DNA of 62,867 nucleotides from positions 1 through 62,867 of the IMG/VR virus record IMGVR_UViG_3300024518_003743. One strand, given 5' to 3'. Numbering within the stretch: position 1 is the first letter of the stretch; each line of letters opens with the position of its first letter. Below the pieces are notes generated by a model. It was given only the letters and a program-made list of their open reading frames with translations, did not search any database and had not been told where the DNA came from. Source of the DNA: a virus. The translations under genes and the position numbers were made by a program. Below are positions 9,355 through 55,455 of the stretch, in pieces.

Positions 9355-9551
9355 AATTTGAATTAGAAAAATGGAAGTCTTTGCTCGGTAAAACCGTAAG
9401 AGACGGAAATGGGAAGTTTGGCACCTTAAAGGGGCTAACACTTGACGGAGACCTGTTAGTAAATGAATTTTGGTGGTATCACGACCAAGTAAATGAATTC
9501 GTAGACCCTAACCAAACAAAATTATTCGAAGATGAAGATAACGGCCAATAG
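9351..9551 (+). CDS. small protein with a clamp-binding-like C-terminus
   Basis: A 66-residue protein lying directly upstream of the sliding-clamp gene and overlapping it by 20 bases; it also overlaps the helicase stop as ATGA. The N-terminal 45 residues are a small beta-rich domain (KTVRDGNGKFGTLKGL). Residues 55-59, QTKLF, match the QxxLF clamp-binding pattern and are followed by an acidic tail. It may load onto or modulate the phage or host clamp; this is inference from motif and position. Confidence 0.6.
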   Translation: MKFELEKWKSLLGKTVRDGNGKFGTLKGLTLDGDLLVNEFWWYHDQVNEFVDPNQTKLFEDEDNGQ

Positions 9552-10680
9552 AGAGTCACTCGTAAAAGTCCTCGACGTTGTAGCTCGTGGGATTGAAAAG
9601 ACAACTATTCACGCTTGGGAATGCCTTTACATGACCGTAAAGGGAGACAAGTGCTACATATACTCGAGGTCTTCGGACATGCAAATCAAAGGATACATCA
9701 CAGTTGAATCTAGTGAAGACTTTGATATGTGTGTTCCGGCCCAGGTGTTCTGCCAAACCATTAGGCTTCTAGACTGTGAGAACGTTATAATCACTTCGAA
9801 GGTAACTAAGAAGGAAGGCTCTGCAGACCACTACATGACCATCATTTCTGTCAAGGGCCAGAAGAGAAAGTATCGAATCTCCAGCATTAACCCGAAAGAG
9901 TTCTCGGTAGTCACCATGGACAAGGAGAAACTTAAAGGTTTCCCGATCTCAGGAGAGGCGTTCGTAGGAGCCATGACAACATGTAGCCCGATTGTGAACC
10001 CGAAAGACCTTCGTGAGATGATGTCAGGAGTGTCTATAAAGACCGTAGACGGCGTTGTTGAGGTTTCAGCTACAGATGGAACCGTGATATCCAGAATGGG
10101 CCTACACGTCGAAGAAGAGATTCCAGAGATGATGATTCCAAAGCGTACAGCCATGATGTTGGACGGTGTTGATATTTCCCCGCAAATCAAAGTAGGAACG
10201 GATGGCAACAGCGTTCTAGTTCAGAACGGACCAATTACATTCATCGCTAAGCTCCTATATGGGAAGTATCCACCAGTGAAGGAGTTCTGGAACTTCCTCA
10301 AGAAGGACAACTTCGTGTGTATATCCCGAGTTGAGATGATGAACACCCTCAAACGACTCAACCTGTACTCGAAGAATGAATTCAACTCGACTAAAATGGT
10401 TTCAAAAGAAGGAGTCATAGCCCTTACGGCTGTGAACGAATTCGAGGAGAACTACGCATACGAGGAGCCGGAGATAATATCCAACACGCTCGTTGATTGT
10501 GCTACCGCCTTCAACTCTAGATACATGCTCACTGCTCTCGACAAGATGGAGTCCGATGAGATTCTTGTTCACACTGAAGGCAATAAATCTTCTATATTCC
10601 TATTCGAAAAGAACGGGTCAAAAACACCAGAGCAGATGTGGCTAATAGCCCCTGTGTCAATAGGGAAAAGAGATAATTAA
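9532..10680 (+). CDS. dnaN: DNA polymerase III beta subunit-like sliding clamp
   Basis: A 382-residue protein with the length and pattern of bacterial beta clamps: the start MKITANRESLVKVLDVVARG, a first-domain LYMTVKGDKCYIYSRSSDM, and the second-domain region SGVSIKTVDGVVEVSATDG close to the conserved LRxVATDGHRL-type segment. The clamp encircles DNA and tethers polymerases. The phage has no polymerase gene here, so the clamp probably works with host Pol III or directs phage repair proteins. It shares one base with the next start (taATG). Confidence 0.88.
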   Translation: MKITANRESLVKVLDVVARGIEKTTIHAWECLYMTVKGDKCYIYSRSSDMQIKGYITVESSEDFDMCVPAQVFCQTIRLLDCENVIITSKVTKKEGSADHYMTIISVKGQKRKYRISSINPKEFSVVTMDKEKLKGFPISGEAFVGAMTTCSPIVNPKDLREMMSGVSIKTVDGVVEVSATDGTVISRMGLHVEEEIPEMMIPKRTAMMLDGVDISPQIKVGTDGNSVLVQNGPITFIAKLLYGKYPPVKEFWNFLKKDNFVCISRVEMMNTLKRLNLYSKNEFNSTKMVSKEGVIALTAVNEFEENYAYEEPEIISNTLVDCATAFNSRYMLTALDKMESDEILVHTEGNKSSIFLFEKNGSKTPEQMWLIAPVSIGKRDN

Positions 10681-12544: not shown

Positions 12545-12899
12545 CGGAAACACTCGAAGCACTGGGCAGAGACAGCTCAATAAAGACTATCTTGACATTA
12601 TCGTTTCTTCATCTGAGATCAAGAAACTTATCAAAGCCAGAGCCGAAGCGCTCGGCCTAGACCTATTCAAGGTCGCCAAAGAGGCCGGAGTCAGCTACAG
12701 AGCTTTCAAGAAACAATACCTACAACAAGACCAGCCAATGTCTAGCCCTCAGCTACGACAGGAGCACATCATAAAGATTCTCCAGGTGCTGGGAGTGTTG
12801 GTAAAAATAACAGTGGTCGAAACTCCGCTCGACAAAATGAGCGAGACCTACATTAGTTCAATCCGAGACAAGTACTACATTGACCATGGAAGTAAGTAG
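12537..12899 (+). CDS. helix-turn-helix protein
   Basis: A 120-residue protein with an XRE-like core (IKARAEALGLDLFKVAKEAG then VSYRAFKKQYL). It resembles small phage regulators with an extended helical C-terminus. It overlaps its neighbours on both sides. Probably DNA-binding; regulated genes are unknown. Confidence 0.65.
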   Translation: MIDGNTRSTGQRQLNKDYLDIIVSSSEIKKLIKARAEALGLDLFKVAKEAGVSYRAFKKQYLQQDQPMSSPQLRQEHIIKILQVLGVLVKITVVETPLDKMSETYISSIRDKYYIDHGSK

Positions 12900-25794: not shown

Positions 25795-28700
25795 TTAATT
25801 TATCCTATCAACAGCAATCCCAATCTTGGCAGATTTTCGATTTAGTGATACCCTTTTGTTTATAATGTCCTGCGATTGGCTTGGCTCGAGAGATTCGAGC
25901 AACTCTAGATTCTCGTTGATAAAATCGTAAGTCGCTGTCCCTGACTCCTTAATGTACTGATAGAACTCTTCGTGAGTCATATCAACTCCGTCAAGCATCT
26001 TTACGTTTGGCGAAGCTCCAGGTATGAATATACCTTTACGCCCTAAAAACAGCCACACCTTGTCATCTGTAACGTCAGTAAAGAATCGATTACCCTGCTT
26101 CTTTATTACGCCGCCCAGCGCATTTAGTTTTGGATTCAAATCAATATTTGACCGAACAAACGGAATTTCCTTCAGGATAGACGCTTGAATGGTCTTCCCG
26201 TCATAAACAGTGTTGTCAAAGAACCCTTTGTCAATTTGCTTAATGAAGTTAGGGATGAATGACGTTCCAGTTCTTCCAATCGACTTAAAAAGCTTGTCCG
26301 CCTGCTTCTCTGGGTTGCTGTCACTTGTTAGAGCGCTCATCAAGCCAGACAGACCTGACAAGAACGACATGTCGAATATGCCTCCTGCTGAAGACTGAAG
26401 CGCCCAGGCTGACTTTGTAATCATATCCTGTTCTCCAAGCTCTCCAAACTCCTCATTGTCCATCCAGTTACCTACGAACGACAGCCCAACTCCGAGAGGA
26501 GTAAACTGATAGCTCCATGTTCTATCTCCAATCTTAACGCTGTAAGGCCTATTCCCTTGAGACAGCCACTGGTTTTTCTTTCCGAAGTCACTTGGCCCAG
26601 CTCCTGTGATTTTGAAGAATGGGTCTTCATCGTCTCCGTATGCTTTTGCCATCATGTAGATTCCAGACATGAGAAGCGTTCCCATCGTCGCTTTTATCAC
26701 CTGACGCTGGCGTTGTTTGTTGTTTTCTGGAGCCAAAGTATCTAGCCTTGTGAAATTCCAGTTACTAGGGCTGACACCCATAGCTCTCAAATAACCCCAA
26801 GGAGTGTAATCAATTTGCTGGTTGAGTACGTTTGCAACTACATTCGTAAAAGGAACAACCAACTTGAATGGAGAAAACTTCTCTCCTATGGTTCCCATTG
26901 CTCCTGAGATCATTCCAATTACACCTTTAGGCTTGTAGTTGAATGTTACAAACGCAGCGAAGTCCTTAGCGTCAGACAGAACTTCTTCCGGAATACTTTC
27001 CTCAATAATTTCGTTTGCTCTAATTCGAACACGTCTTTTTCTTTCGCCTGGGGATATAGCACCTTCAACCTCTTCGATTGCTTGGATTTCTTGTTCCGCC
27101 TGCTCTTTGGCGTTGTTGAACGCCTCTGTAGAGTTGTTCATTAGCTCAGAAGTTCTTTCTCGGAGCTTTCTTCCGCTTAACCCCTCTTCTTTAGCGGCGT
27201 CTCTAGCGACTTCATGCTTCATCATCCCAGCACCAGCCATGTATGCTGAGGCATCTACAGCGGTCATTGCTCTAAGTACAAACTTGTAGTAGTTGAGAGG
27301 TCTGAACTTTCCGCCTTTAAACTTGTAATTCTCAAGCACTGGCTTGGCCTCTATCTTCGATGTAATCTTCGAAGGAGATACCCCAGTCTTAAGAATTTGG
27401 CGAGCTTCATCAGCCGCTCTTTTAGATCCTTCAAAGAATCCGAGTATACTTCCTCCAATCGCCTTCGGGTCTCCTTTTATCACTGCCTGTTGTATTCCAG
27501 ACACAGTAAACTCAAGCCCCAGGTTAAGAATGTTGGCGTATGCGTTAAGCAGTTGGGTTTCGTGACCTGAAAGAACTGACGCATACCATACAGACCAGAA
27601 TAGGTCTGACTTTTCTATTCCAGACTCTTTCTCAATAAGAGACAGCATCTCCTGAGTCTTCTCGGCTCTCAAAAAGCCTTCTGGACGATTCTCTCTTTCA
27701 GCCCCTAGCTCGTTTAGCTTCTCAAGTGTTTCGGGACGAAGCTCCGTGAATCCAAATGCTTTTTCCAGTTGGTCTTCAATTTGCTTGTCAGTGAGGTTGT
27801 TCTCTTTTGAAATATTGTCTATCGCCTCTATAGAAGTCTTGCTCGGAGTGCCTACTGCTCTCTTCATTGATTTCTTTCTCTCTGCAGATACAATGTTTTC
27901 AAATTCCGCCTCAATCTCTTTAGCAAGACCGTTTGCAGTGTCAGCATCAAGACCAAAGCTCTCCTGGAATTTCTTCGATAGGTCTGAGTCTTTCTTCGTT
28001 GAGGTGAAGTGCTCAACCACCATGTTCTCAATATCAGCGACCTCAGAAAGCTCGCTTAGAGTTTTTCCGGTTTCATTTTTAGCAGAAGCCCATATTCCTT
28101 TCAGAACATCATCGTCTTGCACATTCAGGTCGCTTCTCATGGATGCAGCCCATTCTTTGAACGTTCTAACCCCGCCCGCAAATAACGCGAATCCATACTC
28201 TCCGAGAGCTTCTATTTGCTCTTGGTTCAAGGCAATCAAAGAAACCGAAGCAGAGCTGCTTTTGGCTTTGTTGTATTTAGCTAGAGCGTCTTTCTTCTTC
28301 TTTTCAATTTGAGACTTGGTAAGCCCGAACGCCGTGACGTTCTTCTTTTTAATGTTTTTGGCCGACTTTTCGAAAGCCTTCTTAGCGGCGGTGGTAGTTC
28401 CTTTTTTGTATCCGGATTTTGTTCCCGAGTAAAGCACTCCCGCCTTCTTCTTGAAGTTCTTCTTCGCCTTTCTGAGCTGCTTCGAATACGCTACGGTCAA
28501 TCCCTCTACTGAGATGTTGTCCCATAAAGCAAATGCCTGAACTCCCTGACCTAGCTCAGTGGCTAGTCTAGAAACCTCGCTTGCGATCTCAATGGCATTA
28601 TCTAAAGCTTCTGGAGTCCCCTGGTTGTTGTACTCTTTGATAAGAGCCTGAGATAAAGACACGCGAACTCTAGGCGACATCTTGTTGTCTGCGTCTAGAA

Positions 28701-31700
28701 CGTCCTTAGTCGTTTGCTCCAAGCCTTTCTCTTTAATAATCAAATTGACCTCATCAACAGTGACGGCGTTCGAAATAGGGATGTATTTCTTCGCGTCTTC
28801 AGAAAGACCCTCCTTAATGTCTTCGCTTAGATTCTCGTCTTCGATTAGCCTTTCCGGAAAAGCTCTGTCTTTTGCTTTCGGCTCTTTGCCTGACTCGTCA
28901 ACGTCTTCCGTTGGGGACTCCTCTTTAACTGGTGCCTCAACAACGCCTTCGGCAACCGGCTCAGCGGCTGGCTCCTCTTTTATGAAAGCATCTTCCTTAG
29001 CGACTTGCCCTCTGTATGTGTTTTCGAACATCTGTTCAGATGCTTTCTGACCATTCTTAGAAAGGCCTTTGTACCATTCTGATTGACGGAGAGACTCAAG
29101 ACCCTTGTTTACCGCCTCAGAAACCTTCTGAGTAGCCTCAAGAGTTGTCGCCGCGATTTCAAGAGCGCCGTCGATCGCTCCTTTAAATAGCCCGGTTGGG
29201 TCAGACTTTAATCGGTTCATGTCGTTGAATGACTTCACGAACTTCTTGCTGCGCAGGAAATCTGCTGCCTGCTGAAGCTTGCCTGGGGCAACTTCCTCAA
29301 CTATCGTCTTGGGCGCCTTGACAGGCTTCACTACAGCAGCCTTAATTTCTTTGAATTGCTCACTAATATCTTCTTTCGAGATTCTACCGTCAGTAGCGGC
29401 CTCGATTCTTTCTGCAACAGTATTTTGAAGGTCTTTCGCTTTCACCCCTTCGTTCGTAGCATCTTGAGCCACCTCAACTACCGAATCAAATACAGCGGCA
29501 TTAGACAAAGGGGCTTGCGGGGAGCCTCCCATCTTCTCAACGGCTATCTTTAGGTTTTCTTCACCCTTGGCTTCCGCTACCTCTGCAGGGGGCTTCTCTG
29601 CGGCCTTAGCGTCCTCTTCTTTGATGGATGCAATCTCTCTCTCAAGAAACTCAACATTCTCCTTATTTCCGAACTCGCTTTCTTTTTCCACCTTCAAGTC
29701 TTCCTCAAGGGACTCGAGCAGCACTTGTCGAGGTGTCTTTTCTTCTGCCTCCTCTTTAGTCTCTTGCTCTTCTAGTACGGTCTCTTCGACTTCCTTTTCG
29801 GGTTGCTCGTCTTTGGTTTGCTTATCTGGCGTTTTGCCGGTTTTGGCGCTGTCCTTTTTGGGCTGTGCTTCTTGTTTGGCATCTTCTTTCTGTTTTGTTT
29901 TTTCCGCCTCAACGTCCTCCTCAGACTTCGCTTCTACGGTGTCTTCGGGAGATTTCACAAGGCCGGCCTCTTGCAGTTTTTTCATAACTGAATCAGAAGG
30001 GCTAGAAATGTCTAGCACCGACTCATTGTTCCTTATCGACTCAACAAACACAGGGTCGTCAAGCTTCTCGATGATCTCTTGCTCGCTGAAAAAGCTGTCG
30101 TTTATCTTGTATTCAGTTTCGGGCTTGTCTGAAATCACAACAGAGTCTCCCTTTTCTTTTACAGATGAGTCCCTATCAACAACCGCTTTAATTTCTTTGT
30201 CTATTGCGCCAACCTTCTCAGCTCGCTCCTGTTCCTTCTGCTCTTTGAAGGCGGGGTCAACATATTCAGAAGACTGCTTTTCAAGAAGCTCTTTCTTTTC
30301 CTGAACAAGGCCAAGCAATTCAATTTTCGCGTTGTCGCTTGCTTTGTCAGGCATGCCGTCAAAAATAGCTTTTGTCTCGTCAAGAATGTCAACAACGCTC
30401 TGGGCTTGTTCCGGAGTTATCTCCTCATTTAACAGCATTCTTTGAGCTTTGGCTTTCAGCTCAGGAATGGACTCCATTGACTCAAGCAAGGCAGCGCTGT
30501 TCAGCTTGCTTTTGGTGTTCGAAGAAATGGATCCAGGAGTTGAGGCCGTTCCGGTCAAAAGTGTCGTTATTAAAACCGTCTCTAATAGGTCCTCCGAGGT
30601 AAACTCATCATCAAAGGCTCTTCGGCCAAGGACGTTGTTTGCCATTACGTTCATCTGAGTCTCTGAAAGGCCCTGCATAATCTCCTGAAGGTTCTCCGCC
30701 TTTATCTCTCTAGACCACGTTTTAAAGGCCGCCGACAGCGCGTCTTGGGTAGACGCCCCTTTTTTAATGTTCTTTATTGTTCCAGAAACAATGTTCTTTT
30801 TTCCGACCAGCAACTGGTTGGGGCTTACAAGTTCTAGCAAACTTGTAGCCAAAGTGGTAGGAAGTGTATATGCTACCGCTTGGTCCTCAGTCAGCCCAGC
30901 ATCAATAGCCGCCTGATAGTTTTTAGCGTGCTGAAGATTGAAGCTTGAAGCGACAAGCCCAACGTTCCTTGCCTTTTCTTCTGACCCCAAAGCTTTTTTC
31001 AGCTTGGTCATTTTTCCAAACTGGGTTGCAGGGACTAGTAGTCCCGCCATGTCTGCTCCCGCGTACAGAGTTTTATTGATTACCCCTTTCCAGTTTACCG
31101 AACCGTCCTCGTTAAAGGTGTTCTTCAGGTCGGTTGGAATTAGGTTCTCAAACTGCTCGTCGTTTAAATACTTGTCAGACTGCTCTGCTATTTTGTCAAA
31201 AAAGTTTCCAATCTCAGCCGTGTTCTTTCCTGTGATTCCAAAAGACCTTGGAAGGGTTGAAAGACCGTGAGTTACAGAGGTAGCCGTTCTCTTCAGAGGG
31301 TTTCCTATGTTGATTTCCAGAAAGTGGTCCAGCGACTCTACGGGTCCCATTGCGCCGCTCTTGTACCGCTCGTGCTTTTCGTCGGTTATCTTCTGAAGTA
31401 ATTGCTGCTCCTCAATTTCTTCCCAATTATCCTCAATGAACTTAAGGTCTTTTCCGAGGTTACTTCTAACGTTTTCTGTGGCACCCATCTCGAGAAGGAT
31501 GTCAAACATTTGGTACTTCTGGTTGATTCGATCAATCTCCGCTTTAACCAGGTCAGACGTTGGTTCGTCGGGGCTTCCCGCAACTGACGCGGCACCAGAC
31601 TCAACTGCTGACAATGGAGAAAATGCGTTTGCCTGAGCAAGCTCTTTGGCTTTCTCTCTCTCAAGAATATTTCTTTGGTGGTCAAAAGCATTCATAGTGA

Positions 31701-32898
31701 AGTCTATGTTGCTCTCCTTAAACAACTCCTCTGCCGTCTTCTTGCTTCCAGAAAGCTTTAAGAAGTTAGAGTAATCACTAAACACCTTAGCGTCAAGAGC
31801 CGTTATCTTAGACATGTTAACGCCTTCTGGATTGTCTGCTGCACCTGAGAACTTTGCGTCTGTAGAAACAGTTGGAAACAAGTGCGCTGTAAGGGCGTTC
31901 ATCCCCTCCTTAAACTCTTTGCTCTGAAAATCAGAAACTCCCTGAAGCTTCTCTATATGCTCTTCTCTTCTCTTTACAAATGCTTCAATTTTTTCAGGAG
32001 TGTCAACCCCTTTCATTCTTCCAGCCCTAGCAAGTCGAATCTGCTCCTCAGTCTTTTCTATCCCCTCTTTGTTGGCCTCTGCATTAGCTCCCTCTCTAAA
32101 AATCTTAGAAACATCTATCCCTAGCTGTTCTCCAGTGCTGGCAAACCTTCTCAGGGTGGCATCATAAAAAGTCTTGGTGTCCGGAGCCGTTAATTGAGCT
32201 ACCGCATCAGGGTCATCCTTGTTTCGTTCTACAGCGCTTTGAAGCTGAAAGTCCAAGTGCTCTCCAGCCGTTAAGGTTCGGCTCTCGGGGTCTCTAAGGA
32301 AATCAATAGCTGTTACAACCGTGCCCTCTTCAGGAGACGACCCCCTAATTGTGTGAGATAAGTCTAGGCTTTGCTCTAGCCTAGCAGCCCTGTCGTCTTG
32401 GGATTCAATATCAACAATAGGAGGAGTTACTGCGCCCGCGCTCTCAGCAGCGAACTCATTTAGCTTAACCCCTTCGAGAAGCTGCTTTTGAAAGTCTGGT
32501 CTTTGAAACTGTTCTGGTACGACTACCTCAGGAGCCGGAGTCGTCTCCCCTGTCGGAAGCTGTTGATCCAATTCTGGTGACGCCGAAACGGAAGGAACCA
32601 AATCTGATGTAGAAGAGACCGATTCCGACGGGGTCGTTGTAGTAGGTACTTTTTTTTTAAAGCGAATAGCCGGAGGGAGAGCCCCTAAGCCTGTCGCCAT
32701 CGGGTCAGGTGCGAAGAACTGCGTATTAAACTCTTCAAAGCCCTTAGTGTAGTCTCCAGAACCAGAAAGCGATCCGTGTAGCCTGCCTATTGCTTCAGGT
32801 GTGCTAAACTGAGCTTGAAAATCCTCGAAGCTTTTCGTGTAAGTACCTTTCTCAACTAAGGATGCGTGTAATTTTCTTTTACTTTCTTCTCCTGGCAT
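25795..32898 (-). CDS. giant internal virion / ejection protein
   Basis: A 2367-residue protein, the largest here. The N-terminus has two copies of a short motif (LHASLVEKGTYTKSFEDFQ and LHGSLSGSGDYTKGFEEFN), a repeat seen in large podovirus internal proteins. Residues about 980-1130 are a Lys/Glu-rich, probably coiled-coil tract. The C-terminal third contains hydrophobic helices (ATMGTLLMSGIYMMAKAYG, about 2075) and a SYQFTPLGVGLSFVGNW segment. By size and by position next to two other internal-type proteins, it is probably packaged and ejected with the DNA. Enzyme domains are not evident. Confidence 0.7.
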   Translation of the reverse strand: MPGEESKRKLHASLVEKGTYTKSFEDFQAQFSTPEAIGRLHGSLSGSGDYTKGFEEFNTQFFAPDPMATGLGALPPAIRFKKKVPTTTTPSESVSSTSDLVPSVSASPELDQQLPTGETTPAPEVVVPEQFQRPDFQKQLLEGVKLNEFAAESAGAVTPPIVDIESQDDRAARLEQSLDLSHTIRGSSPEEGTVVTAIDFLRDPESRTLTAGEHLDFQLQSAVERNKDDPDAVAQLTAPDTKTFYDATLRRFASTGEQLGIDVSKIFREGANAEANKEGIEKTEEQIRLARAGRMKGVDTPEKIEAFVKRREEHIEKLQGVSDFQSKEFKEGMNALTAHLFPTVSTDAKFSGAADNPEGVNMSKITALDAKVFSDYSNFLKLSGSKKTAEELFKESNIDFTMNAFDHQRNILEREKAKELAQANAFSPLSAVESGAASVAGSPDEPTSDLVKAEIDRINQKYQMFDILLEMGATENVRSNLGKDLKFIEDNWEEIEEQQLLQKITDEKHERYKSGAMGPVESLDHFLEINIGNPLKRTATSVTHGLSTLPRSFGITGKNTAEIGNFFDKIAEQSDKYLNDEQFENLIPTDLKNTFNEDGSVNWKGVINKTLYAGADMAGLLVPATQFGKMTKLKKALGSEEKARNVGLVASSFNLQHAKNYQAAIDAGLTEDQAVAYTLPTTLATSLLELVSPNQLLVGKKNIVSGTIKNIKKGASTQDALSAAFKTWSREIKAENLQEIMQGLSETQMNVMANNVLGRRAFDDEFTSEDLLETVLITTLLTGTASTPGSISSNTKSKLNSAALLESMESIPELKAKAQRMLLNEEITPEQAQSVVDILDETKAIFDGMPDKASDNAKIELLGLVQEKKELLEKQSSEYVDPAFKEQKEQERAEKVGAIDKEIKAVVDRDSSVKEKGDSVVISDKPETEYKINDSFFSEQEIIEKLDDPVFVESIRNNESVLDISSPSDSVMKKLQEAGLVKSPEDTVEAKSEEDVEAEKTKQKEDAKQEAQPKKDSAKTGKTPDKQTKDEQPEKEVEETVLEEQETKEEAEEKTPRQVLLESLEEDLKVEKESEFGNKENVEFLEREIASIKEEDAKAAEKPPAEVAEAKGEENLKIAVEKMGGSPQAPLSNAAVFDSVVEVAQDATNEGVKAKDLQNTVAERIEAATDGRISKEDISEQFKEIKAAVVKPVKAPKTIVEEVAPGKLQQAADFLRSKKFVKSFNDMNRLKSDPTGLFKGAIDGALEIAATTLEATQKVSEAVNKGLESLRQSEWYKGLSKNGQKASEQMFENTYRGQVAKEDAFIKEEPAAEPVAEGVVEAPVKEESPTEDVDESGKEPKAKDRAFPERLIEDENLSEDIKEGLSEDAKKYIPISNAVTVDEVNLIIKEKGLEQTTKDVLDADNKMSPRVRVSLSQALIKEYNNQGTPEALDNAIEIASEVSRLATELGQGVQAFALWDNISVEGLTVAYSKQLRKAKKNFKKKAGVLYSGTKSGYKKGTTTAAKKAFEKSAKNIKKKNVTAFGLTKSQIEKKKKDALAKYNKAKSSSASVSLIALNQEQIEALGEYGFALFAGGVRTFKEWAASMRSDLNVQDDDVLKGIWASAKNETGKTLSELSEVADIENMVVEHFTSTKKDSDLSKKFQESFGLDADTANGLAKEIEAEFENIVSAERKKSMKRAVGTPSKTSIEAIDNISKENNLTDKQIEDQLEKAFGFTELRPETLEKLNELGAERENRPEGFLRAEKTQEMLSLIEKESGIEKSDLFWSVWYASVLSGHETQLLNAYANILNLGLEFTVSGIQQAVIKGDPKAIGGSILGFFEGSKRAADEARQILKTGVSPSKITSKIEAKPVLENYKFKGGKFRPLNYYKFVLRAMTAVDASAYMAGAGMMKHEVARDAAKEEGLSGRKLRERTSELMNNSTEAFNNAKEQAEQEIQAIEEVEGAISPGERKRRVRIRANEIIEESIPEEVLSDAKDFAAFVTFNYKPKGVIGMISGAMGTIGEKFSPFKLVVPFTNVVANVLNQQIDYTPWGYLRAMGVSPSNWNFTRLDTLAPENNKQRQRQVIKATMGTLLMSGIYMMAKAYGDDEDPFFKITGAGPSDFGKKNQWLSQGNRPYSVKIGDRTWSYQFTPLGVGLSFVGNWMDNEEFGELGEQDMITKSAWALQSSAGGIFDMSFLSGLSGLMSALTSDSNPEKQADKLFKSIGRTGTSFIPNFIKQIDKGFFDNTVYDGKTIQASILKEIPFVRSNIDLNPKLNALGGVIKKQGNRFFTDVTDDKVWLFLGRKGIFIPGASPNVKMLDGVDMTHEEFYQYIKESGTATYDFINENLELLESLEPSQSQDIINKRVSLNRKSAKIGIAVDRIN

Positions 32899-34575: not shown

Positions 34576-35426
34576 TACAGTCCAAATGTTTGAGGAACGT
34601 CAATAGCAGGCGTAGCCGCTTGCTTATCAATACCTAAGCGAATGTTGTCAATCGTTTGGTTTTGAATCTCTTGTGCGTTCGGGTTAATACCAGGTGTCGC
34701 TAAAGGTGGAGCTCCAGCGTTTTCGCCCGCTCCTCCACCAAGGAGTCCAGACACGCTTTGAATGATGTTTCCTATGTCTCCAGCGACTCCGGTTGCTCCG
34801 GTTGCTCCGGCTGCAGGTGTGGCTGCGCTTGAGGCTGCTGGATTTTGGCCAGGTAAAGTTCCTTGGAGCGCTGCTAACGAGCCTAAGTTTTGTAAGGCGT
34901 CCGTTCCCGCCTGAGCAGAGGCCGCTTTGGCTCGGTTTTGATTAAGCAATCCGAGCTCTAATGTTCTTTGGCTTATTCTGGTTCCAAGCTGCTGAGTAAG
35001 CTGTTCTACGAAAGGAAGCCTTTGTTGTCCCTGAACTACCGCTTGGTTTGTAGCTGCCTGGGTTCCCTTTTGTGCTTTAATCAATGCGTTTACCGTGCTT
35101 CCCACATCTCCGCCTGTTGACCTAGCTATACGCCCTTGAGTTGTAGCCCCAACTTTCTGGGCCTCCCCAATGGCGCCTTGAGTGGCCGCGTCTGAGCCAG
35201 TAGAAATGTTTTTTCTAATCTGGTTAAGCTCGTTGATTCTTTGTTGCTCCAAAGGATCTACAAGCCCAGGAGCAAGCTGATTCGCTTTTCTGCCCTGAAC
35301 ACCAGATTCTATAAGGCCTCCAGCCGTCTGCCCAATCTGAGCTCCAACTGCTCCTCCAACGCCCGGTGCGATAGTTGTTCCAGCTACGCCTCCTAAAATT
35401 GCGCCTATTGATTGTCCGTTTGCCAT
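34575..35426 (-). CDS. small ejection/pilot-like protein with glycine zipper
   Basis: A 283-residue Gly/Ala/Gln-rich protein. The N-terminus has a glycine-zipper membrane segment (GAILGGVAGTTIAPGVGGAV), the middle is Gln-rich helix, and residues about 195-215 are Ala/Gly repeats. This matches small internal proteins of podoviruses that insert in the host membrane during DNA delivery. It is between the nozzle protein and the larger internal proteins. Confidence 0.65.
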   Translation of the reverse strand: MANGQSIGAILGGVAGTTIAPGVGGAVGAQIGQTAGGLIESGVQGRKANQLAPGLVDPLEQQRINELNQIRKNISTGSDAATQGAIGEAQKVGATTQGRIARSTGGDVGSTVNALIKAQKGTQAATNQAVVQGQQRLPFVEQLTQQLGTRISQRTLELGLLNQNRAKAASAQAGTDALQNLGSLAALQGTLPGQNPAASSAATPAAGATGATGVAGDIGNIIQSVSGLLGGGAGENAGAPPLATPGINPNAQEIQNQTIDNIRLGIDKQAATPAIDVPQTFGL

Positions 35427-38400
35427 TACTTAATCGGTTTATATTGAAGAACAGTTTCTACAACCTTAAAGTCTTCCTCAAAAATATGAATTACTTTGCA
35501 GAATAGCAATCTAGCTTGTACCCGATCTCTGGTTGCTGAAACCGAAAGGTCCTTTCTAGGAATCTGCTGACCCCATCCGTCGTATTGCTTAAGATACAGC
35601 GGACCTTGAATTCCTGGGTCTAGTGCACAGACTAAATCTCTGTCCTCATCCAAAAACTCTATTCTACTTGGTTTTTGTTCGCCTCTCTTTCCGGTCATGA
35701 CCTCGAAGCGAATGTATTCTTTTTCTACGGCTGGTGAAGGGGAATAGTTCGTTATAAGCGAATATTCTATCGGGCCTCCATTTATTTCAAACCCTCTTTC
35801 GAGCTTGTAGGTCTCAAGACCTCTAAATCCGTACATGTCGTTGTCGCTGAACAGGTAGGTGTCGAACTTATAGTCAAACGACCCCAGCCAGTGATTAGTG
35901 TCTTGAGCAAACACAAACGTTTCCGAGTCTACCGAATCTCGCTCAGTTTCTCCTTCTACAAGAAATTCCGGAAGCCTCTGAGGGTCAAGCTGTAACCAAT
36001 ACTCATTGTGGTTATGGTTGACGCCTCCAGCAATGCGATCAAGATATCCAGCCCTCATTCTGATTAATACAGGGTTAAGCCTGGAGAAGTAGGTGTCCTT
36101 CGCTATGTCTTTTACCACGTTGCTCATTAGCCTATACACGGAGTGGTTGTTAGGAATGTAAAGAGCTTCTTGTTTAACTCTTCCGTCCTCAGTTATAATG
36201 TCCATGGTGCCTTCGCCCATTCCTCTCCACATTTCATCGCTAGAGCCAACCTCATGGTCTAGCCAGTACTGACCTCCAACAAACCTGTCAGAAGCAAGTG
36301 TTGATAAGTCGTTAGCCTCAAGGCTAGAAAGTATTGTTTTGTTGGTCAGGATAAGGCATATCCCTGACTCACAAATAGCGTACAGGTTGTCGCCCTTTCC
36401 TGGGGTTGTTGCATCCCAAGCTTTCTTGATTTCGCCGTCATCATCGTCTAGGTCAAATCGATTCAGCGAAAGGAAAGTCTTTAAACCGGGAGAGTCTTGT
36501 TGATTTATCGCTCTAGACAGGCTCCATGTGACTCCAGTACAGAAGTCGTTCTCCTCTTCGAATCCAAAGTCCGGCTTTGACAAGAACTCAATAGGCCCTC
36601 TAACAGCATAATCAAGATTGATGTTCTGCATGAATCTAAGACCTCCAAACTTCCAAATACTATATTCAAGAGGGTAGTCTTCGAAATAGTCTTCGAACAT
36701 GTTGTTGTCTGACGCAATATCTTCAATGACCCCGGTCGCGAAGCTTGAGTTGTCAAATCGATTCGGACGCATAATGTAGTGAGTCAGCGGGAAGTACTGG
36801 TCAGAAGTTGCCCCGTTGTGGGCATAGTGAACTGCCACCCGGCTTTCGCACGCGAACATAATGCACAGTTGTCGGATATACCCAAGGCTTCCCTTGTTTA
36901 TGTCCTGAATCTTGTTAATCCCTGTGGTTCTAGCAACGATGTACTGACGAGGGTTGATCTCGTACTTTCTAAACGGGAACCCAATGTTGAACACGAACTG
37001 AGTGTCTTCAGCGTTGTCTGAAGCATCTGCCTCACGATCGATTGGAGAGAAGATGGCTTCTCCTACCGTGCTATCTCCTCCGAATACTCGTATTGGCCGT
37101 CTATTGTCATACCTGACTAATATTTTCTGGTCTACCGTTGGGTAGAAATTTGGGACGTTGAATTCGACTGTAAACGCCGTGTCTCCTGCGTTTGTGTGCG
37201 TGTACAATCCAACAACCTCGTTCCCAAGTGCTGCGGCATAGAATCCGTTTGTTGTAATGTCTGTTAAGATTGCTGTTACCTGAGCAGCCGTCAAGAACGT
37301 GCTATCCATAAACACTTCAATGTTTCCGGCTCCGTCTTGGAGGTAGACAAACACCTCATCAGCAGCTCTTGGACCTGTAGAAGACAAATCAGGAATACAG
37401 TCTTCCCACCTTTCGTCTACAAGCTCAAAAAATTGGTCAGGAGTTCCGTCAGCTTGGCCGATAATGCTCTCTACCTTCTGGTAGTGCCCTGTTCCGTAAT
37501 ACTGGTCAATATTTTGATCGATTACATTCTTTCCGTCCTGAACGATGTTTATGATGTACATCGGCTCAGTAAAATCCTTCAGTCCAGCATCGTCGAAGTC
37601 GTTGTTTCCGGTTCCGCCAGAGCCTCCGGCATTGTACACGTTTCCTGTAAGTGAAAGCTCGTAGTACACACCTCTGCCCTCCGTAACAGAAGCTATGCTG
37701 TCAATACTTATAAGAGTATCTCCTCCGTCAGGACCAACAAAAGCTCCTCCGCCAGCAGCGTGAGAATTTCTGTACTTGTTGTATGCTACATATCTGTTTC
37801 CTCCAGAACCAACACCCATTCCCGGGTCTTCTCCTGGGTTTATCTGGCCTTCGTCATGAAGCACCCGCGCGTAGGTAATCATATCTACAAGCCTGTCTCG
37901 TGCCGAGAGCAGTGAGTTCTCTTCAAATGAATACACCTCCGAGAAGAAGCCCAGAGGAGAGACCACCTGAACGCTGTAGTTCTGAGGGTTGCTCGAAATA
38001 TCATCAATAACCGACTGGCTGATTATTCCAGCCTCAATGTCTGGTGAGAAGAACCAAAACTTGTCTTGGTCTTTCGTGGCCGCCGATGCGTTACCAGCAG
38101 CATTAAAGTCTCCTTGGTTTAGGGCATACGATCCAATTCCTTGGCATACAACCCTCCCTGCAGGTGCTGTTCTAACTACTGAAAATGCTTTTGCCCACGA
38201 CGGAAGATTGCTAATACCTCCAATGGCAACTCCATGGGCATAATAGTTTGGCGCGAAGCCCTCAGGGTTGTACGCTCTAGTTACCGGACCAGCATCTGCC
38301 TCGAAATTGACTTGGTAGTTGTGGTCTCCGGTTGAGTCGTTCTGGTCGGTAGGCCTGTATGGGTCATAGCCAATTTCATCGCCACCAACGAATAGTCCAT

Positions 38401-39895
38401 GCCCAGAATCCGGACACCCAAGGCTATTTACCTTTCCTTGAGACTTTGATCCGTCGTCTAGTATGTTTTGGAACCCACATTTGTCCGTCTTACTGACAGC
38501 ATCTTCCAAATCGAATATCTCATGCGTCTGAGTTACGGCACTCTGCAGGTTTGCTGCCTCGGCAGTTCCGAAATACGAGAGCAGTTGAGAGTCGACGTCT
38601 GCCTCAGCTCTTCTGTTCGGTATTTGGAAGTTCTGAATCCCAGCATCGTCCTCGGCAAAACCTCGACCGCCAAGTGCGTCGAATAGGTTTACAGCAAAGC
38701 TGAACCTCTCTCCGCCGGTGTAGTTTTTGTAGTACGTGTGATTCACCGGGTCGTTGTGCCCTGCTTTTCCGAGCTTCTGAACGATTGGGAAAATCTTCTT
38801 GCCATTGAACTCGTCAAATACAAGGTTAGTCTCTTTTGAAGCGGTGCTGTAGTTCATTAGAACTATCTTCTTGTCGTGGTATCTGATTGCTTTCGCTTTC
38901 TCGATAAACGACAATTCGCTTTCTCCTTCTCCGTCAGCAAGGGTGTCTTCTACGTTTGATTGAATCGGGTCAACAAACTCTCGAACAGATATCTCCCCTG
39001 GAGAAACCTCAAGTTTTGCGATTACCTCTCCTTGCGGAACAAAGTCAAGACCTCCAGCAGCCTGATAGGACACTCGACGGATCTCAATAAAATCATAGTT
39101 AACCAGATTCGTAATTCGAAACTTAAGCTTAATCCCGAAGCTCGTTGGAGCTGTTACGTCAGGACTGTCGCCATAACTCTTCGTATACGGGTACTGGTTG
39201 CTTCCTGTTCCCGACCCTTGAAGCACAGGAATTGGAGGGGTTTGGTGCCCCCAGTTTGTTCGGTCTCCTTCGTCATTAACGTATCTAAGAGAGTACTGAT
39301 AAGAGCCTATAGGAAGTCCGCCTCCGCCCCCGACATTCTCAAGACCTGTAAAAACAGGGATGTCAAGTGGAGAATCTAGATTTACCGTGTATAAAGCTGG
39401 ATTGAAGTTCGTGAAATACTTGTCAGGGTCTAGCGTGAGTGAGTCGATGATGTCCTGAATGTTGAATATCATCGGAGTCGTGTTATTGTCGGTGATATAC
39501 CACTCTCCTCCTTTACAGTTCTCGTTTCTGTCACACTGGATAGGGAAGTCCACTAGCCAAGGCATGTCTGGGGACTGACCCATTATAACGCCGTCGATAC
39601 GGATGATTGGAGCCTCTGCCCCATTTCTATCCACCCAGATTTCAACAATGTTCTTGTTAATATCTTTTTCACCTATGCAAACCCAATCGCCAGGAATGTT
39701 CTGAGCTGGGAACTCAACCTCTTCTCCGCGAATCTTAACGTGTGATCGTTTTCCGCCAGTAGAATCGGATATGCGACCGTTCTTACTGTCGTAGTATTCT
39801 CCGTCATTATCGGCACCAGAAAGCTCAGGGTCAATGTCAACATTCGCCCCTTTCCAGTTCGATTTTGCGTCTTTTGGATGGTGTTCCGTCTTCAT
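35426..39895 (-). CDS. tail nozzle / DNA-stabilisation protein
   Basis: A 1489-residue beta-rich protein placed directly after three ring-like proteins. The start (ELSGADNDGEYYDSKNGRIS) and early GDWVCIGEKDIN segment resemble the large stabilisation or tail tubular B-like proteins of crAss-like and P22-like phages, which form the tail muzzle as a beta-propeller-like hub. Size exceeds the usual 700-900 residues, suggesting added domains for host contact. Confidence 0.65.
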   Translation of the reverse strand: MKTEHHPKDAKSNWKGANVDIDPELSGADNDGEYYDSKNGRISDSTGGKRSHVKIRGEEVEFPAQNIPGDWVCIGEKDINKNIVEIWVDRNGAEAPIIRIDGVIMGQSPDMPWLVDFPIQCDRNENCKGGEWYITDNNTTPMIFNIQDIIDSLTLDPDKYFTNFNPALYTVNLDSPLDIPVFTGLENVGGGGGLPIGSYQYSLRYVNDEGDRTNWGHQTPPIPVLQGSGTGSNQYPYTKSYGDSPDVTAPTSFGIKLKFRITNLVNYDFIEIRRVSYQAAGGLDFVPQGEVIAKLEVSPGEISVREFVDPIQSNVEDTLADGEGESELSFIEKAKAIRYHDKKIVLMNYSTASKETNLVFDEFNGKKIFPIVQKLGKAGHNDPVNHTYYKNYTGGERFSFAVNLFDALGGRGFAEDDAGIQNFQIPNRRAEADVDSQLLSYFGTAEAANLQSAVTQTHEIFDLEDAVSKTDKCGFQNILDDGSKSQGKVNSLGCPDSGHGLFVGGDEIGYDPYRPTDQNDSTGDHNYQVNFEADAGPVTRAYNPEGFAPNYYAHGVAIGGISNLPSWAKAFSVVRTAPAGRVVCQGIGSYALNQGDFNAAGNASAATKDQDKFWFFSPDIEAGIISQSVIDDISSNPQNYSVQVVSPLGFFSEVYSFEENSLLSARDRLVDMITYARVLHDEGQINPGEDPGMGVGSGGNRYVAYNKYRNSHAAGGGAFVGPDGGDTLISIDSIASVTEGRGVYYELSLTGNVYNAGGSGGTGNNDFDDAGLKDFTEPMYIINIVQDGKNVIDQNIDQYYGTGHYQKVESIIGQADGTPDQFFELVDERWEDCIPDLSSTGPRAADEVFVYLQDGAGNIEVFMDSTFLTAAQVTAILTDITTNGFYAAALGNEVVGLYTHTNAGDTAFTVEFNVPNFYPTVDQKILVRYDNRRPIRVFGGDSTVGEAIFSPIDREADASDNAEDTQFVFNIGFPFRKYEINPRQYIVARTTGINKIQDINKGSLGYIRQLCIMFACESRVAVHYAHNGATSDQYFPLTHYIMRPNRFDNSSFATGVIEDIASDNNMFEDYFEDYPLEYSIWKFGGLRFMQNINLDYAVRGPIEFLSKPDFGFEEENDFCTGVTWSLSRAINQQDSPGLKTFLSLNRFDLDDDDGEIKKAWDATTPGKGDNLYAICESGICLILTNKTILSSLEANDLSTLASDRFVGGQYWLDHEVGSSDEMWRGMGEGTMDIITEDGRVKQEALYIPNNHSVYRLMSNVVKDIAKDTYFSRLNPVLIRMRAGYLDRIAGGVNHNHNEYWLQLDPQRLPEFLVEGETERDSVDSETFVFAQDTNHWLGSFDYKFDTYLFSDNDMYGFRGLETYKLERGFEINGGPIEYSLITNYSPSPAVEKEYIRFEVMTGKRGEQKPSRIEFLDEDRDLVCALDPGIQGPLYLKQYDGWGQQIPRKDLSVSATRDRVQARLLFCKVIHIFEEDFKVVETVLQYKPIK

Positions 39896-55167: not shown

Positions 55168-55455
55168 TCTTCTACAGACGTGTCGTGCCTATGGGACGTT
55201 TCTACGCCACAGCTCTAAGCTGAGGTGAGAAAAGAGGTATTACTTTTCCTGTTATAGGATCAGACTCTCGAAGTATACATTTATAATGCAGTCAAAACCA
55301 GTCGGCCCCAGTATAATCGCTTTACGTCATTACCTTTACACTCTTCCACAATGGAGATGAGGTTTGTCCTAGACGGGCAATACTGTTTTCTTGTGGAGCC
55401 GGAGGGTATCGAACCCTCGTCCAAACACCGTTTCTTCTCAAACGAATCTGGTGCA
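55168..55455 (-). ncRNA. ssrA: circularly permuted (two-piece) tmRNA
   Basis: Read on the - strand, the 3' tRNA-like half comes first: T arm GAGGG-TTCGATA-CCCTC (55402-55418), acceptor strand CGGCTCC (55401-55395) and discriminator A. After an 84-base spacer comes the 5' half from 55309: GGGGCCGACTGGTTTTGAC, which matches the conserved tmRNA start. GGGGCCG pairs with CGGCTCC along all seven positions (one G-U). Downstream, CAGC-TTAGA-GCTG (H5-like) holds the tag stop UAG (55217-55215) in its loop. The tag frame before it ends in codons for SNTSFLTSA; the resume codon is uncertain. A terminator follows. tmRNA rescues stalled ribosomes. Confidence 0.72.

Follow-up and report, generated by a model that had tools for sequence, protein, structure and literature searches.

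Organization of the tmRNA locus

We analyzed a viral DNA stretch of 62,867 nucleotides (IMG/VR record IMGVR_UViG_3300024518_003743, hereafter the window), whose minus strand carries the two halves of a circularly permuted tmRNA. To judge from its sequence, the gene is real and looks intact. Two tRNA genes, tRNA-Pro (TGG; 55618-55544) and tRNA-Gln (TTG; 55538-55467), were reported by both ARAGORN and the Rfam scan; the latter lies directly upstream of the tmRNA. With its counterpart in Synechococcus phage S-RIM8 the tRNA-Pro gene shares 91% identity over 78 bases, which gives no pointer to Bacteroidota. All coordinates of the tmRNA locus below refer to the minus strand.

The acceptor piece, delimited by sequence reading (55450-55394), lies upstream of the coding piece and contains the T arm GAGGG-TTCGATA-CCCTC (55418-55402) and the 3' acceptor strand CGGCTCC (55401-55395), both also placed by alignment to the Rfam model RF04321. 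CGGCTCC is followed by A55394 and then CAA, so that CCA is not encoded. An intervening sequence of 84 bases (55393-55310) separates the halves; by analogy with known permuted tmRNAs, this linker is expected to be cut out of the transcript, and an RNase P site is expected directly before 55309. The coding piece, which starts with GGGGCCGACTGGTTTTGAC, opens with the 5' acceptor strand GGGGCCG (55309-55303). All seven acceptor pairs form, including G3-U, the alanine identity pair. The D-loop region ACTGGTTTTGAC follows (55302-55291, RF04321 alignment); its TTTGAC is invariant across 17 aligned sequences. The tRNA-like domain comprises a seven-pair acceptor stem with G3-U, a T arm and a TGGTTTTGAC D-loop region. 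The anatomy proposed by the first-pass annotation, including the T arm, CGGCTCC, the 84-base gap, the start of the 5' half at 55309 and the full acceptor pairing, was read here in the same way.

The two pieces can be joined by an interrupted helix H2. Its outer strand CAGATTC (55450-55444) forms seven pairs with 55267-55261 by both inspection and duplexfold, and its middle strand GAAG (55437-55434) pairs with CTTC (55273-55270) in duplexfold, which places the partner strands CTTC and GAGTCTG of the coding piece at 55273-55261. The inner strand GGTGT (55429-55425), adjoining the tRNA-like domain and found by inspection and in the RF04321 alignment, can pair with GCATT (55289-55285, by inspection); this pairing is absent from the duplexfold optimum for the window halves. 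Further downstream are the tag frame, from GGA to GCG TAG (55249-55202), and, within the tag codons, an H5-like hairpin CAGC-TTAGA-GCTG (55222-55210). A small putative pseudoknot at 55198-55174 would pair CGT (55198-55196) with the loop ACG (55186-55184) above the stem ATAGGC/GTCTGT; folding gave the hairpin only, the rest comes from inspection, and a putative CGT/ACG pseudoknot 3' of the tag is visible by eye in several related loci. The terminator described earlier is present as an intrinsic terminator-like hairpin with a T run (55172-55140), whose hairpin appeared again when the coding half was folded.

Detection by covariance models and existing tools

The permuted tmRNA model RF04321 matched the locus with 46.5 bits (E-value 3.3e-8 when 421 bases were searched, 1.2e-9 for the whole record). 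The curated gathering cut-off of this model, a detection threshold and not a biological feature, is 47 bits, and the gathering scan missed the window tmRNA because its score lies 0.5 bits below. ARAGORN made no call on the locus with default settings or with -ps; at a 50% threshold it produced three structures, none of them on the tmRNA strand. The gene was therefore overlooked by both default ARAGORN and the Rfam gathering scan, although the standard tools miss it by a narrow margin. The standard model RF00023 matched only the 3' half of the locus (28-33 bits) and no second locus in the 62,867-base record. A one-piece tmRNA was rejected, since the order of the halves is reversed and RF00023 matches the 3' half alone and no other place in the record. 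The Infernal comparison suggested in the first-pass annotation gave a match to the permuted model just under its cut-off, and to the standard model in the 3' half alone; a conventional one-piece tmRNA elsewhere, which would have spoken against the proposal, was not found in the record with RF00023.

Of 19 relatives given to RF04321, one (L104) lacks the acceptor piece; all 18 with both halves passed the cut-off that the window fails to reach, which speaks against the window. We also built a covariance model of the coding half from 16 relatives (15 members of the tag group described below and Maribacter phage Panino), with the window excluded. This leave-out model matched the window at 55168-55309 with 79.7 bits (E-value 7.4e-15), the next-best match there having 13.1 bits. 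Among 42 other loci, the highest scores, from 122 to 88 bits, belonged to L020, L103, L104, L121 and L092, three of which (L103, L121 and L092) were part of the training set; Chryseobacterium phage MA9V-3 scored 52.9 bits and all remaining loci less than 45. Together with the RF04321 result for the record and the sequence reading, this match bears out the earlier proposal that the phage carries a circularly permuted tmRNA gene. Folded alone, the coding half gave a z-score of -2.7, with one of 200 shuffles as low; this fold was not used as evidence because the acceptor strand pairs internally in it.

Relatives of the window tmRNA

Pattern scans of viral contigs yielded 74 distinct permuted sequences including the window, whose stretch occurs in identical form in contigs L005 and L012. 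A scan with a D-loop pattern added L103, L104 and L105, and a scan with a tag pattern added L109-L112. The other three of the seven new tag-pattern loci (L107, L108 and L113) were chance matches in other sequence, the D-loop-pattern loci L102 and L106 look by eye like one-piece phage tmRNAs, and the 3' half was not found upstream of L101, a further locus from that scan.

Contig L109 encodes a TerL that shares 39% identity over 638 residues with that of the window (the latter a weak PHROG assignment, E-value 6.8e-5) and a protein 33% identical over 265 residues to the window portal. From the tmRNA to terL, which lies downstream, the distance is about 4.5 kb in L109 and about 4.3 kb in the window; the tmRNA gene seems to have retained its position despite the divergence of the proteins. 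L109 also contains a match to the Pistol self-cleaving ribozyme at 12718-12780 (plus strand; 58 bits, cut-off 34.5).

Several other loci showed features of their own. In three of the 12 loci given, a tRNA gene lies inside the tmRNA linker: tRNA-Ala (TGC) at L084:3674-3748 (minus strand), tRNA-Arg (TCT) at L086:1250-1324 (minus strand) and tRNA-His (GTG) at L117:1544-1616 (plus strand). With a whole tRNA in the linker, one transcript could yield the two tmRNA pieces and a tRNA. Permuted phage tmRNAs at L018:1354-1439 (plus strand) and L004:586-696 (minus strand) have the tags ANGNFAIAA and DNTVNMIATRATRIAA, respectively; L018 has TGGAATTGAC at the position of TGGTTTTGAC in the window.

Base pairing across the family

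The acceptor positions left free by the search patterns, two per side, pair in all 148 cases across the 74 distinct sequences, compared with a mean of 109.9 and a maximum of 121 in 5,000 shuffles, the best of three registers being taken. All seven pairs form in 73 of the 74 sequences (49 with fewer registers, 73 once a further register was allowed); the exception is L086, with A-C at the first pair.

For H2, true halves had a mean duplex energy of -15.0 kcal/mol over 23 loci (L065 was omitted owing to its short upstream sequence), compared with -10.1 kcal/mol for swapped halves, a difference reached in none of 20,000 permutations. For a set of 16 loci, made up of Panino and 15 group members, the values were -13.8 and -9.8, again with 0 of 20,000 permutations. 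The energy of the window itself (-12.2) is not beyond chance, with 309 of 1,000 shuffles as low; among 16 possible partners, the true one ranks first for the acceptor piece of the window and fourth for its coding piece. A helix H2 between the pieces is thus evident at the level of the family, and is not significant for the window alone.

To examine H5, we aligned the nine final codons and the stop of the 16 group members without gaps. The four hairpin pairs are present in 79.7% of cells, compared with 58.3% in shuffles (a value as high in none of 500), and slid versions of the pairing in 23-45% of cells. In 17 cells both sides have changed, compared with 5.8 in shuffles (none of 500). Of the five measures, two cruder ones did not exceed the shuffles: any both-sides change (226 of 500) and further pair types (141 of 500). 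By eye, L110 and L071 seem to use another register.

Promoter and host

TAnnTTTG is described in PMC6847099 as the -7 element of Bacteroidota promoters, with the transcript starting 4-5 nt away. A motif search found a promoter-like element of this Bacteroidota type, TATATTTG, at 55461-55454, for which this spacing gives an expected transcript start near 55449-55448. When the region 30-70 bases before GGAC was searched in 23 loci (L065, too short, was left out), TAnnTTTG started 39-45 nt before GGAC in nine of them, with 0.58 expected; the nominal probability of 1e-9 is too strong because the loci are related. The motif also occurs in the matching stretch of seven of 58 other permuted loci. Across the window as a whole it is not enriched (50 sites against 40.9 expected, a count reached in 10 of 100 shuffles; 2 sites against 1.57 expected when a TTTG box was required upstream), so the case for a promoter rests on the fixed position at the tmRNA gene, where no -33 box is evident in the window.

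Neither the portal nor TerL had a tblastn match among 50,697 phage records, named phages included, and we therefore infer the host by other means. The position of TAnnTTTG and the occurrence of permuted tmRNAs in Bacteroidota phages suggest that it is probably a member of Bacteroidota, which gives moderate support to the host assumed in the first-pass annotation. The helicase matches 1,385 phage records and the ATPase 102, from many host groups including Bacteroides, Parabacteroides and Cellulophaga. Elsewhere in the window, 9532-10680 (plus strand) encodes a sliding clamp resembling the bacterial DNA polymerase III beta subunit (tblastn matches to two phage records, 20% identity), and long reading frames of 2367 and 1489 aa occupy 25795-32898 and 35426-39895 (both minus strand). 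The 2367-aa frame matches only two phage records, one of them annotated as internal virion protein D of Desulfovibrio phage ProddE.

Tag reading frame

Comparative alignment and the alignment to the leave-out model support the tag GKVIPLFSPQLRAVA, which would end at TAG 55204-55202, a stop that begins five bases beyond the H5-like hairpin. This tag resembles those of other phage permuted tmRNAs, such as GKVINLFSAPVRLAA (L043) and AKVINLFTPQLRVAA (L109). Loci with a KVI-like tag and both halves form a group of 16 including the window; L104, with no acceptor piece on its contig, and L020, near-identical to L043, were left out. The remaining tags are GKVVQMFSPSLRAVA (L060), VKVIQMNTTPLRMAV (L065), GKVIQMNEPAKLAA (L071), SKVINLFREPLRMAV (L072), GKTFEMFHAPLRAVA (L078), GKVISLNNAPLRAVA (L083), DKVINLFNEPMRLAS (L086), GKTINIFDSEAKAAA (L092), PKVINLFEPQLRAVA (L103), DKVINLFNEPLRMAS (L105), GKVINLFGNTVQAAA (L110), GKVISLFNEPMRLAS (L111) and AKVINLFGNEAKLAA (L112). 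Of the 15 relatives, 11 were retrieved by scans made without the tag, though they were afterwards grouped by it. Eight further permuted loci examined in detail have other tags, e.g., NKTIKINNYVGIIAA (L049) and that of Panino, GKVMNVSFAPTVRQFA. No copy of the tag family was found in 84,980 cellular species by two strict pattern scans, whose narrow patterns would miss variants.

Several observations agree on the frame. Unaided, ARAGORN calls the GKVIPLFSPQLRAVA-type frame in seven of the 16 members (L071, L078, L092, L105, L109, L110 and L112), gives another tag in four (L060, L065, L072 and L086) and is silent in five (the window, L043, L083, L103 and L111). Third codon positions are the most variable in the supported frame across the 16 members. 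Before the resume codon, A stands at -4 in all 16 and U at -5 in 14; in E. coli tmRNA, U-A at these positions sets the tag frame (PMC2481249). By group comparison, the window has this U-A at 55254-55253, equivalent to U85/A86 of E. coli tmRNA, and it points to GGA 55249. The window thus has a resume codon, a U-A signal and a stop. The final residue of the 16 tags is A in 11, V in two and S in three, so that the -AVA end of the window tag is ordinary within the group. It is also a small hydrophobic end as in other tmRNA tags, and the argument of the first-pass annotation from an atypical LTSA end therefore falls.

Proposed function and alternative explanations

Judged on the sequence evidence, the locus very likely is a functional phage-encoded permuted tmRNA that would act with host factors, and its role would most likely be trans-translation with host SmpB; SmpB had no match in the record, so function would depend on the SmpB of the host. 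The sequences themselves show the order of the gene parts, their pairing, and a tag frame conserved across phages. The course that we infer, from transcription, cutting and charging to the use of SmpB, the benefit to the phage and the fate of tagged proteins, would begin with a single transcript, started at the TATATTTG element or by read-through from the two tRNA genes and ending near the 55140 terminator. Host tRNA enzymes would excise the 84-base linker and the host CCA-adding enzyme would complete the acceptor end, while the acceptor stem and the interrupted helix H2 would hold the two pieces together. Charged with alanine, the RNA would enter, with host SmpB, ribosomes stalled on broken messages. 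The ribosome would resume at GGA 55249, add Ala-GKVIPLFSPQLRAVA and stop at TAG 55204. The phage would likely benefit from the ribosomes released in this way, and the tag would probably still be a degradation signal.

The first-pass annotation had the same permuted tmRNA end its tag in LTSA, at TAG 55217-55215 in the loop of the H5-like hairpin. In one-piece tmRNAs, H5 lies inside the tag codons and the tag stop in the hairpin loop, a likeness that favors this stop, and the LTSA frame is indeed open to it in the window, L043 and L109. In the other 13 of the 16 members, however, the LTSA frame is closed earlier or lacks a stop at this position; L103 shares the stretch CCTCAGCTTAGAGCTGTGGC yet has a TGA just upstream in this frame. 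Moreover, the U-A signal favors GGA 55249, and an out-of-frame stop arises by itself when the tip of the hairpin holds a codon pair such as CTT AGA. The hairpin itself is therefore retained, whereas the TAG in its loop is out of frame, and a tag ending in LTSA is hardly credible.

Two other explanations were weighed. The tRNA-like domain could reduce host trans-translation by competing for SmpB or the ribosome, as a decoy comparable to the tag-less tmRNA of mycobacteriophage DS6A, a type of molecule reported in PMC4131195 and PMC11915505 to inhibit tmRNA. Such a decoy would need no tag frame, resume signal, H5 or stop, all of which are kept across the phages, and we consider this role very improbable. 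A decaying relic of a captured tmRNA would fit the RF04321 score just below the cut-off and an H2 energy that, for the window alone, lies within the shuffles; but the seven acceptor pairs, T arm, tag, H5 and terminator-like site are all intact, the tmRNA sits at a similar place in L109 despite a TerL only 39% identical, and the locus scores 79.7 bits against the model of its relatives, which makes decay very unlikely. A working rescue RNA therefore remains the preferred reading. The locus adds evidence for permuted tmRNA genes in Bacteroidota phages, with one kind of tag common to diverged phages, and makes both the origin of the two-piece tmRNA and the reason why phages carry their own rescue RNA testable.

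Comparison with known systems

The tmRNA of Bacteroidota themselves is of the one-piece type, and Cellulophaga phage Calle_1 has a standard one-piece tmRNA (RF00023). The window shares with RF00023 the parts of the tRNA-like domain and presumably the role, and differs in piece order. RF04321, which merges the alphaproteobacterial (RF01849), betaproteobacterial (RF01850) and cyanobacterial (RF01851) permuted families, agrees with the window in piece order, T arm, acceptor stem with G-U, D-loop sequence, tag frame and the H2 between the pieces. The window differs from it in the KVIxLF..PLR tag family and in its score (46.5 against 47), a pseudoknot before the tag was not recognized in it by eye, and the probable host of its phage lies outside the three bacterial clades named in PMC11915505.

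Among phages, methylophage Melnitz carries a two-piece tmRNA that, like that of the window, is phage-encoded (PMC9004378). The same source reports 133 unique tmRNA structures from 402 of 18,146 phage genomes; 53 were suggested by ARAGORN to be two-piece, 50 of them from marine or aquatic samples. It relates the Melnitz tmRNA to alphaproteobacterial ssrA and describes its linkage to a glutamine riboswitch, whereas no riboswitch was found in the window at the Rfam cut-off. Crassvirales infect Bacteroidetes (PMC10136315). The crAss-like phages cr60_1, cr114_1, cr10_1, cr125_1 and cr50_1, as well as Chryseobacterium phage MA9V-3, have genes annotated SsrA that ARAGORN calls permuted, and their tags, e.g., GNFYVTDYTRIAA, GNTSYVMDYTRLAA and GNVIDINKYVAKLEVAA, differ from the KVIxLF type of the window. 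In crAss-like phage cr53_1 (L122:1430-1900), an unannotated tmRNA with the T loop TTTGATC, not called by ARAGORN, is apparently permuted by eye. Maribacter phage Panino (PP540027) likewise has a gene annotated SsrA and called permuted by ARAGORN, which scores 97 bits with the coding-half model that Panino itself helped to train; its tmRNA sits in a large tRNA array, and the window portal and TerL have no match to Panino.

As the genes of Panino, MA9V-3 and the crAss-like phages are annotated SsrA, permuted tmRNAs of Bacteroidota phages have already been deposited, and permuted tmRNAs in phages are not new, either in print (PMC9004378) or in GenBank. Among the literature matches listed, no paper described a KVI-type tag or a permuted tmRNA of Bacteroidota phages. 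We tentatively raise the possibility, itself rather doubtful, that Bacteroidota phages have their own two-piece tmRNA lineage, apart from the three bacterial ones, with a selected phage-specific tag xKVIxLFxxPLRxxA, so that proteins rescued during infection would receive a phage tag in place of that of the host and a different fate. What is new, as far as our searches reached, is the shared KVI-type tag family (KVIxLF..PLR) and its occurrence in phages only.
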